From contig NZ_JAUKTR010000006.1 of assembly GCF_030504955.1 (NCBI RefSeq), positions 62,001 through 126,000 of the forward strand: a DNA stretch of 64,000 bases, in the 5' to 3' direction. Position numbers and translations under genes: made by a program. The stretch is from Peiella sedimenti (lineage in GTDB: Bacteria; Pseudomonadota; Alphaproteobacteria; Caulobacterales; Caulobacteraceae). The number at the start of each line of letters is the position of its first letter. The first letter of the stretch is position 1. Shown piece by piece: positions 20,529 through 23,717 of the stretch. A model generated the notes under the pieces. It worked only from the letters and a program-made list of their open reading frames with translations. It did no database searches and was not told the DNA's origin.

Positions 20529-20834
20529 ATGCCCGATCTGGCCCAGACCACCGATTACATCCGCCAGCGCGTGGGCGAGGATTCCGGCCTCGGCAAGAGC
20601 GTGAAGCTGGACTTCGGGCCCGAGGGCGTCATCCACATCGACGGCGCCTCGACGCCCAATCAGGTGACGAACGAGGACAAGCCGGCTGACGCCACCATCT
20701 CTATGGCCTGGGACGATTTCATCGCCCTGTCCGAGGGGCGGCTGGACCCGATGATGGCCTTCATGCAGGGCAAGATGAAGATCCAGGGCGACATGATGCT
20801 GGCCCAGCGGCTGGCGCCGCTGCTTAAGGGCTGA
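20529..20834 (+). CDS. SCP2 sterol-carrier-domain protein
   Basis: A 101-residue stand-alone SCP-2 domain: VKLDFGPEGVIHIDG, ADATISMAWDDFIALSEGRLDPMMAFMQGKMKIQGDMMLAQRL. Bacterial members bind fatty acyl chains or lipids nonspecifically. A good RBS (AAAGGAGA) precedes the ATG at 20529. It converges on the ECF sigma gene, 7 nt apart. Confidence 0.88.
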   Translation: MPDLAQTTDYIRQRVGEDSGLGKSVKLDFGPEGVIHIDGASTPNQVTNEDKPADATISMAWDDFIALSEGRLDPMMAFMQGKMKIQGDMMLAQRLAPLLKG

Positions 20835-20841
20835 GCAAGCC

Positions 20842-21429
20842 TTACGCCTCGGCCTGCTGGCCGACGCGGCTGTCTTCCGTTGGATCGCCCATCAGATCCA
20901 CGAGCCGCCGGCGCGCCCTGTGAACACGGCTCTTGATGGTGCCCACGGCGCAGCCTGAAATCTCGGCGGCCTCTTCGTACGAGAGGCCCGCGGCGCCCAC
21001 GAGAATGATCGCCTCGCGATGCTCGGGCGGCAGACGCTGCAGCGCCACGCGCAGCTCGGTGACGGAGACGCCCCAGTCCTGATTGGCCTCGGTGGTCAGC
21101 CCGGCCGCATGCTCGCCGTCCTCATCGGCTACTTCGCGCCGGCGCTTAGCCACGGTCGAGTACCAGGTGTTGCGCAGGATGGTGAAAAGCCAGGCGCGAA
21201 GGTTCGTGCCTGGCTCGAAGCGGTCGCGGGCGCTCCACGCCTTGACCATGGTGTCCTGAACGAGATCGTCCGCATCCGCCCCGGAGCGCGCCAGGGTCCA
21301 TGCAAAGGCGCGCAGCGAGGGCAGTTGCGCCTCGAAGTCGCGCCGCCACTGCTCCCGATCGAGCCGACGCCGCGTAGTGGGCGCGGAATAGCGACGCTCG
21401 GTTTCAATGGTTTGAAGGGAAGGGGGCAT
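20842..21429 (-). CDS. ECF sigma factor of the EcfG/SigU type
   Basis: A 195-residue ECF sigma factor. Region 2 (LPSLRAFAWTLARSGADADDLVQDTMVKAWSARDRFEPGTNLRAWLFTILRN) and region 4 (LPPEHREAIILVGAAGLSYEEAAEISGCAVGTIKSRVHRARRRL) are very close to EcfG, the general-stress sigma factor. No nepR or phyR gene is adjacent, so it is better read as a secondary EcfG paralogue, like Caulobacter SigU, which SigT controls. It carries an EcfG promoter of its own (21460-21484). Confidence 0.9.
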   Translation of the reverse strand: MPPSLQTIETERRYSAPTTRRRLDREQWRRDFEAQLPSLRAFAWTLARSGADADDLVQDTMVKAWSARDRFEPGTNLRAWLFTILRNTWYSTVAKRRREVADEDGEHAAGLTTEANQDWGVSVTELRVALQRLPPEHREAIILVGAAGLSYEEAAEISGCAVGTIKSRVHRARRRLVDLMGDPTEDSRVGQQAEA

Positions 21430-21459
21430 TCGACGCCTTACGCTGCACTCCTCTTTCCG

Positions 21460-21484
21460 AACGCCATGGCGTCGGCCCCGTTCC
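21460..21484 (-). promoter_or_regulatory. EcfG promoter of the ECF sigma gene
   Basis: On the minus strand GGAAC (21484-21480) is followed after exactly 16 nt by CGTT (21463-21460), a perfect match to GGAAC-N16-CGTT. The predicted start site is about 25 nt upstream of the ATG at 21429. Confidence 0.8.
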
Positions 21485-21507
21485 GCCGAGGCGACTAGAT
21501 CAAAACG

Positions 21508-21532
21508 GGAACAATCGCTAAGCTTGCGCGTT
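21508..21532 (+). promoter_or_regulatory. EcfG promoter of egtB-egtD
   Basis: GGAAC (21508-21512), 16 nt, CGTT (21529-21532), again a perfect match. The two -35 elements of this promoter and the one at 21460-21484 face away from each other and are 23 nt apart. The likely start of transcription is near 21539, about 50 nt before the TTG start. Confidence 0.8.
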
Positions 21533-21561
21533 CAGGCGCCGGTGGAGCAGAGGGGAAGGCA

Positions 21562-21594
21562 ATGAGAGCACTGAACAGGGCGCGCGGATTTTGA
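21562..21594 (+). CDS. Candidate 10-codon upstream ORF overlapping the egtB-egtD start
   Basis: ATG at 21562 follows GAGGGGAAGGCA, a better RBS than the one at the main TTG. It encodes MRALNRARGF and stops at a TGA (21592-21594) that overlaps the TTG start (21591-21593). The arrangement would allow translational coupling or attenuation of the downstream enzyme. Confidence 0.35.
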   Translation: MRALNRARGF

Positions 21595-23717
21595 ACGCGC
21601 CTCTCACCTCCCTGTGTCCAGGCTGGACCGTCAGCCTTGATGAGTATCGGCGCGTGCGTGCATGTACCGAAGCCTTGGCGAGGCCGCTGTCCGACGAGGA
21701 CTGCGTCGCCCAATCGATGCCGGATGCGAGCCCGGTCAAATGGCATCTGGCGCACACCACCTGGTTCTTCGAGCGGGTGGTCCTGGCCAAGACCGGGCGC
21801 GCCGTCGATCCCATCCATGACCGCCTCTTCAACTCGTACTACGAGGCCGTGGGCGAGCGCGTGGCGCGCCCCTCTCGAGGCCTGCTGACCCGCCCCTCCC
21901 GAGCCGAGGTCATGGCGTATCGGGCGCGAGTCGACGAGGCTATGGCCGACTTGCTCAGCCGGCCGGCTCCTGCAGGTGAGCTGGATGGGCTGGTGCAGCT
22001 GGGCCTCCAACACGAGCAGCAGCACCAGGAGTTGATCCTGACAGACGTGCTGCACCTGTTTTCCTGCTCTCCCCTTGAGCCGGCCTATGGGCCGGCGCCC
22101 AGGCTGCAAGCCGCGACAGGCGAGGGGCGGTTCCTCGCGATCGAGGGCGGCGTGTACCCGGTGGGAGCCGATCACGTCGGCTTCGCCTACGACAACGAGC
22201 AGCCGAGACACGACGCTCTGGTCCGAGATTTCGAGATCAGCGACCGGCTGGTGACCAACGGCGAGTGGCTGGCCTTCATGGAGGACGGGGGCTATCGGCG
22301 GCCCGAGCTCTGGCTGTCGGACGGGTGGGCGGCGGTCCAGTCGGAAAACTGGCGCGCGCCGGGCTACTGGCGTCGGGACGACGGGGACTGGAGCCAGTTC
22401 ACTCTGCAGGGTCGGGCGCCCATCGATCCGTCGCTGCCGGTTTCGCACATCAGCTTCTACGAGGCGGACGCCTTCGCGCGGTGGGCCGGCAAGCGCCTGC
22501 CGACAGAGTTCGAGTGGGAAGTGGCGGCGTCGAAGGCCGGGCTGTGCCAGGTTTACGACGGCGTCTGGCAGTGGACCGCCTCGGCTTATACGCCCTATCC
22601 GGGGTTCCAGCCCGAGCCCGGCGTAGTCGCCGAGTACAACGGCAAGTTCATGTGCAATCAGATGGTGGCGCGGGGCGGCTCCTTCGCCACGTCGCCCGGG
22701 CATACGCGCGCCACTTATCGAACCTTCTTCTATCCGCATCAGCGCTGGCAGTTCCTGGGACTGCGGCTGGCCGCCGATCGGCAGCGACCGGCCCGCCGGC
22801 CCCAGCCGGACGACTTCACCGCGGCCCTGATCGAGGGCCTGTCGGCCTCGCCAAAGACCCTGTCGCCCAAGTGGCTGTACGACGCCCGCGGCTCAGAGCT
22901 GTTCGAGCAGATCACGGATCTGGCCGAGTATTATCCGACGCGCACCGAGACGGCGCTGCTCCGGCGTATCGCGCCCGAGATCGCCGCCCGGCTGGGGTCG
23001 GGGGCGACGCTCATCGAACTGGGCAGCGGGGCCAGCGAGAAGACGCGTCTGCTGCTCGACGCCGCGCCGCAGGTCAGCCGCTACATCCCCATCGACATTA
23101 GCCCCTCGGCGCTGGAGGCGGCCGCCGAAGCCCTTCGCCGCGACTATCCCGATCTGGAGGTGGCGCCGGTGGAGGCGGACTTCACGCGCGACGTGCCGCG
23201 CGTAAATGCGGCGAGTGACCGGTTGGTTTTCTTCCCGGGCTCGACGATCGGCAACTTCCAGCCTGACGAGGCCGCAGCCTTATTGACGCGCGCCCGCAAG
23301 GCGGCCGGCGAGGGGGCGTGGATGGTGCTGGGGGTCGACCTGGTCAAGGACGTGAGCGTCCTGGAAGCCGCCTACGACGATGCCCGGGGCGTCACTGCGG
23401 CCTTCAACATGAACCTGCTGGAGCGGGCCAATCGGGAGACGGGGGCCGACTTCGACCTCGCCCGCTTCAAGCATCGGGCCGTGTGGAACGCCGACCTCAA
23501 ACGCATCGAGATGCATCTGGTCAGCCTGACGGATCAGACTGTCAGCGTCGCGGGGCGCAGCTTCCGTTTCGCCAGAGGCGAGAGCCTTCACAGCGAAAGC
23601 TCCCACAAGTTCGAGCGCGTTGATCTCGAACGGCTGGCGCACCAGGGCGGCTGGTCGGTCGAGCGGGTCTGGACCGACCCGAAGGACTGGTTCGCGCTCG
23701 CCCTGCTGCGCGCCTGA
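21591..23717 (+). CDS. Fused EgtB-EgtD: hercynine-cysteine sulfoxide synthase plus histidine N-methyltransferase
   Basis: A 708-residue single frame. Residues 1-395 are EgtB: the DinB-like helical domain with iron ligands His52 (KWHLAH), His141 and His145 (HEQQHQE), then an FGE-sulfatase domain (KRLPTEFEWEVAA, VWQWTASAYTPYPGF, GKFMCNQMVARGGSFAT). Residues 405-708 are EgtD, the SAM-dependent histidine trimethylase (SPKWLYDARGSELFEQIT, YYPTRTE, LIELGSGASEKT, FFPGSTIGNF). It would carry out the two committed steps of ergothioneine synthesis; the C-S lyase is not here. About 20 residues usually found before the VWEWT motif are missing. The start is TTG at 21591 with a weak RBS. Confidence 0.88.
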   Translation: MNAPLTSLCPGWTVSLDEYRRVRACTEALARPLSDEDCVAQSMPDASPVKWHLAHTTWFFERVVLAKTGRAVDPIHDRLFNSYYEAVGERVARPSRGLLTRPSRAEVMAYRARVDEAMADLLSRPAPAGELDGLVQLGLQHEQQHQELILTDVLHLFSCSPLEPAYGPAPRLQAATGEGRFLAIEGGVYPVGADHVGFAYDNEQPRHDALVRDFEISDRLVTNGEWLAFMEDGGYRRPELWLSDGWAAVQSENWRAPGYWRRDDGDWSQFTLQGRAPIDPSLPVSHISFYEADAFARWAGKRLPTEFEWEVAASKAGLCQVYDGVWQWTASAYTPYPGFQPEPGVVAEYNGKFMCNQMVARGGSFATSPGHTRATYRTFFYPHQRWQFLGLRLAADRQRPARRPQPDDFTAALIEGLSASPKTLSPKWLYDARGSELFEQITDLAEYYPTRTETALLRRIAPEIAARLGSGATLIELGSGASEKTRLLLDAAPQVSRYIPIDISPSALEAAAEALRRDYPDLEVAPVEADFTRDVPRVNAASDRLVFFPGSTIGNFQPDEAAALLTRARKAAGEGAWMVLGVDLVKDVSVLEAAYDDARGVTAAFNMNLLERANRETGADFDLARFKHRAVWNADLKRIEMHLVSLTDQTVSVAGRSFRFARGESLHSESSHKFERVDLERLAHQGGWSVERVWTDPKDWFALALLRA

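Follow-up and report, generated by a model that had tools for sequence, protein, structure and literature searches.

A divergent pair of EcfG-type promoter sites between a second EcfG-class sigma factor gene and a fused egtB-egtD gene in Caulobacteraceae

The promoter sites and the genes that they face

Are an extra sigma factor gene and an ergothioneine gene switched on together from the short region that separates them, and which sigma factor would read each promoter? The question is raised by a locus in the window (the whole 64,000-nucleotide stretch of Peiella sedimenti DNA that was analysed), where the earlier note had described two perfect GGAAC-N16-CGTT sites on opposite strands, 23 nt apart. 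Both matches are exact and the coordinates agree with that description: GGAACGGGGCCGACGCCATGGCGTT is the minus-strand match at 21460-21484 and GGAACAATCGCTAAGCTTGCGCGTT is the plus-strand match at 21508-21532. The locus is composed of the following features.

20842-21429, minus strand: ECF sigma factor gene, EcfG class, 195 aa, Pfam Sigma70_r2/r4_2
21460-21484, minus strand: EcfG-type promoter toward the sigma gene, -35 GGAAC at 21484-21480, -10 CGTT at 21463-21460
21485-21507: spacer between the two -35 elements, 23 bp
21508-21532, plus strand: EcfG-type promoter toward egtBD, -35 GGAAC at 21508-21512, -10 CGTT at 21529-21532
21562-21594, plus strand: upstream frame of 10 codons, ATG...TGA, its stop overlapping the TTG start of egtBD
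21591-23717, plus strand: EgtB-EgtD fusion gene (egtBD), 708 codons, TTG start, TIGR03440 and TIGR03438 in one ORF

EcfG-dependent promoters are expected to carry GGAAC-N16/17-CGTT upstream of a gene, and this arrangement is found at both sites, with predicted start sites near 21453 for the sigma gene and near 21539 for egtBD. Across the 64-kb window there are no further exact matches to the N16 motif and none to its N17 version. Shuffled windows contained a mean of 0.26 matches, and two or more were present in 4 of 100 shuffles. Over the whole genome, the bare motif shows no enrichment (29 sites versus 26 for a reversed-pattern control), so the case for these promoters rests on position and conservation, not on motif frequency.

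The egt-facing site had been proposed to read into egtB-egtD. The ergothioneine enzymes are indeed encoded there, but by one fused ORF and not by two genes, with the ergothioneine sulfoxide synthase N-terminal and the histidine N-alpha-methyltransferase C-terminal. Both parts score above their family cut-offs (EgtB, TIGR03440, 536 bits with a cut-off of 360; EgtD, TIGR03438, 401 bits with a cut-off of 291), and the solved structure nearest to the EgtB part is an entry called EgtB (Cabther). An EgtBD match is present in 124 of 131 Brevundimonas genomes, with full-length relatives in most. EgtB and EgtD occupy separate adjacent ORFs in genomes G059, G034, G122, G115, G094 and G026, and likewise in several genomes of the genus designated g22. 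As the gene is fused in most relatives and split in some, the fusion was probably gained or lost within the family.

The 10-codon frame upstream of egtBD is putative, read from the sequence, and is preceded by its own Shine-Dalgarno-like AGGGGAAGG. By-eye comparison with a relative (L150) finds ATGAACGCACC, with an ATG start, where the window has TTGAACGCGCC; this ATG, in the position that corresponds to the TTG, favours a plain TTG start of egtBD over a frameshift at the TTTT before the gene. No EgtE-type C-S lyase reaches the cut-off in the genome, the best TIGR04343 match being 63 bits versus 400; the best sub-cut-off matches to the EgtE family, at G000:C1:803711-804535 and 809217-809921, score 63 and 58 bits. 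The last step of ergothioneine synthesis is thus left without a clearly assigned gene, a point against the stress-branch reading proposed below, although another lyase may serve it.

On the other side, the target had been named as an EcfG/SigU-like sigma gene. Its product is an ECF sigma factor with regions 2 and 4 that is nearest to EcfG proteins, and its best solved-structure match is 5uxx (E 1e-44, 153 residues). It shares 51% identity with the canonical EcfG of the same genome and 55-61% with many sigma factors of Rhizobiales encoded beside phyR/nepR, and by these sequence comparisons it is a second EcfG-type paralogue in the genome. Neither nepR nor phyR was found beside the window sigma gene or in the loci of the named divergent-type relatives. 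In a tree of 114 sigma sequences, which is unrooted, has long branches and carries no claim as to order of descent, the canonical EcfG (SigT type) of the family groups with its nearer paralogues in one cluster (support 98/88). The clade of the window sigma lies outside this cluster, nearer to Rhizobiales and Azospirillaceae sequences; the Rhizobiales members are mostly canonical, encoded beside phyR and often with a detectable nepR. Because SigT and SigU are reported to cluster tightly (PMC3892343) and the window clade falls outside the canonical cluster, the window sigma is probably not a SigU orthologue, SigU being placed here by the published clustering and not by its own sequence. Thus, the assignment to the EcfG class holds, while "SigU-like" probably fits the setting of the gene and not its descent. 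A small SCP2-domain gene (20529-20834, plus strand) is convergent with the sigma gene and ends 7 bp before its 3' end.

The canonical switch is located elsewhere in the genome, with EcfG, NepR (PF18557) and PhyR encoded together at G000:C2, approximately 269.7-271.5 kb. A GGAAC-N16-CGTT match at C2:270522-270546 lies directly upstream of nepR-ecfG. In this genome the motif is therefore at its textbook place, where it is presumably used.

Conservation of the pair and egtBD loci without the sigma gene

Retention of the promoter pair in related genomes, a check suggested in the earlier note, was assessed across Caulobacteraceae in 96 distinct pairs of divergent sigma and egtBD genes. Strict sites were found facing the sigma gene in 94 pairs, facing egtBD in 57 and in both directions in 55, compared with dinucleotide-shuffle means of 0.31, 0.37 and 0.01, respectively, and a reversed-motif control gave one sigma-facing and one egt-facing match. 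When similar regions were removed, 87 of 88 sigma-facing and 52 of 88 egt-facing sites remained. The pair is indeed kept, although a strict egt-facing site is absent in 39 of the 96 pairs, which was counted against the shared-control explanation; with relaxed -35 and -10 elements, an egt-facing site is seen in 77 of 96 pairs versus about 7 in shuffles. The sigma gene runs divergently from egtBD for 73 of the 81 orthologues retrieved, representing 12 of 15 genera, and a sigma match at E <= 1e-45 occurs in 90 of 299 genomes of the family. Judged by sequence, each of the two sites behaves like a conserved promoter of the EcfG type. Were the sites incidental, with both genes transcribed from housekeeping promoters, the lack of genome-wide enrichment of the bare motif would be expected; however, their retention across 12 genera makes this highly improbable, and for the conserved pairs the 96-pair count refutes it.

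Gap lengths between the promoters cluster at 21-23 and 33-35 bp across the pairs. This hints at helical phasing, which we do not claim, as the scan for periodicity gives a broad peak around 12 bp and the sequences come from related lineages.

EcfG-type sites also face egtBD where the sigma gene is missing. In Brevundimonas egtBD loci without the sigma gene, a relaxed egt-facing site is present in 89 of 90, versus 7.6 in shuffles. In genus g22, EgtBD matches occur in 61 of 75 genomes, and the search for the sigma gave a single 64%-identity match (G341) among the 75, all others being at 54% or below. An exact N16/N17 site faces egtBD in 12 of 12 g22 loci examined, and no adjoining sigma gene was detected in these same 12 loci. 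The persistence of these sites suggests that EcfG-type control of egtBD can do without the neighbouring gene. The earlier note had both genes induced together from one shared region. The pair is kept, but in most relatives egtBD has an EcfG-type promoter and no such sigma gene next to it; sharing a region therefore appears to be one solution and not the cause of co-regulation. At L183 (G056:C60:152401-152724), what stands next to egtBD is a remnant of the sigma gene, 71% identical and carrying an in-frame TAG, which suggests that the gene is decaying at that locus.

Two sequence classes of promoter

Sigma-facing and egt-facing promoters belong to different sequence classes. The extension R-S-W follows GGAAC in 78 of 94 sigma-facing sites (83%; 75 of 87 when merged promoters are excluded) and in 3 of 50 egt-facing sites of the same pairs. 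The pairs on which this difference was tested are those in which it was first spotted, and Fisher values overstate its significance because the sequences are related. Firmer support is provided by the comparison sets, in which R-S-W is found in 0/36 egt-only sites, 2/61 core-locus sites and 0/51 Rhizobiales core sites, and by a scan of 40 Phenylobacterium genomes, in which the extended motif has 35 matches versus 11 for the control, at least 19 of the 35 falling exactly on the sigma promoter. R at +1 is present in all the representatives of eleven genera. At the sigma-facing site of the window, GGAAC is followed by G-G-G, which agrees with R and S but not with W. A general preference of Rhizobiales EcfG for an extended -35 was also considered and was rejected on the 0/51 count.

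Given this difference between sigma-facing sites and core EcfG sites (78/94 versus 2/61), canonical EcfG may read the sigma promoter poorly, and the extended -35 hints at self-recognition by the sigma. Carried further, the sigma promoter would be read mainly by its own product and canonical EcfG would read only the egt-facing promoter, leaving a separate, self-sustaining branch. The concentration of the extension at sigma-facing sites and the Phenylobacterium scan are consistent with this. However, the core GGAAC and CGTT are common to both classes, W is missing from the site in the window, expression of the comparable sigU of Caulobacter crescentus is SigT-dependent (PMC3892343), and another protein might bind the extension. 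We regard such a branch as a genuine possibility, albeit not one that we would expect to be correct. As for another protein, the extended -35 would then be an operator overlapping the sigma promoter and unrelated to sigma specificity. The signature, often ccGGAACGG, does include a short inverted repeat, CCG-N3-CGG, and is close to unique within each genome, but an extension of 3-4 bases, directly after the -35 and tolerant of R/S/W degeneracy, makes an operator unlikely.

In 7 of the 96 pairs, cases whose independence is uncertain, the two promoters are merged into GGAACG-N15-CGTTCC, so that the -35 of each strand overlaps the -10 region of the other. This symmetric element is not enriched genome-wide in Brevundimonas (40 of 131 genomes, with similar control counts), and six of its Brevundimonas matches fall at the sigma/egtBD region. 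A tentative and rather doubtful extension of self-activation is that Caulobacteraceae possess a separate EcfG branch, with a private self-activating GGAAC-R-S-W...CGTT promoter wired to egtBD, and that in certain species the two promoters have been condensed into a symmetric bidirectional ECF-type element.

A predicted stress branch and its counterparts in known systems

The reading that we favour, and consider likely, is that the DNA between the sigma gene and egtBD serves as a divergent general-stress control region for both, with a proposed feedback. We infer the sigma-promoter assignments, the inducing conditions and the feedback from sequence. Under stress, phosphorylated PhyR would remove NepR from the canonical EcfG (encoded at G000:C2), and RNA polymerase with EcfG would then start at both GGAAC-N16-CGTT promoters. 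The expected output is the fused EgtB-EgtD, for ergothioneine synthesis, and the second EcfG-class sigma, which would probably act on its own promoter and possibly on that of egtBD too, and this feedback would amplify or prolong the response. Such an arrangement suggests that the cell turns on a sigma copy and an antioxidant enzyme together. From the joint stress branch originally proposed, the conserved EcfG-type sites, the gene identities and the PhyR-NepR-EcfG switch stand, but a single EcfG driving both genes is not the sole reading.

For asking what extra EcfG sigma factors do, the pair is a conserved and testable case, in which a solitary paralogue has a promoter class of its own and is linked to a single defined output, ergothioneine. 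The pair also broadens the evidence for counting ergothioneine synthesis as part of the alphaproteobacterial general stress response. If self-activation is true, the two genes share DNA but not one regulator.

A limited literature search found no description of the sigma/egtBD pairing or of the R-S-W promoter class. The placing of egtB and egtD in an EcfG regulon (PMC7083833) and a SigT-dependent extra sigma (PMC4814048) are already known. In Sphingopyxis granuli TFA, egtB and egtD are in the EcfG regulon, with the motif GGAAC-N16-CGTT (PMC7083833). The fused ergothioneine gene here similarly carries an EcfG-type motif; in Sphingopyxis, however, the enzymes are under separate locus tags, and the available part of that report mentions no divergent sigma gene. 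In C. crescentus, sigU expression depends on SigT (PMC3892343, PMC4814048), and SigU (EcfG2) does not bind NepR and has been proposed to be a mild amplifier (PMC4814048). As with SigT/SigU (EcfG1/EcfG2), a canonical EcfG and an extra EcfG-type sigma are present in one genome, but unlike the reported SigT/SigU cluster (PMC3892343), the window sigma lies outside the canonical cluster and its gene is set against egtBD. The divergent phyR / nepR-ecfG core locus of Rhizobiales likewise has GGAAC-N16-CGTT sites set back to back in a single intergenic region, although its genes encode the switch itself and R-S-W is absent from its sites. Finally, the merged element resembles the symmetric bidirectional promoters of bacteria (PMC12825309) in that pseudo-symmetric DNA would serve both directions, but it is built of ECF-type -35 and -10 elements, and in the window the two promoters are separate.
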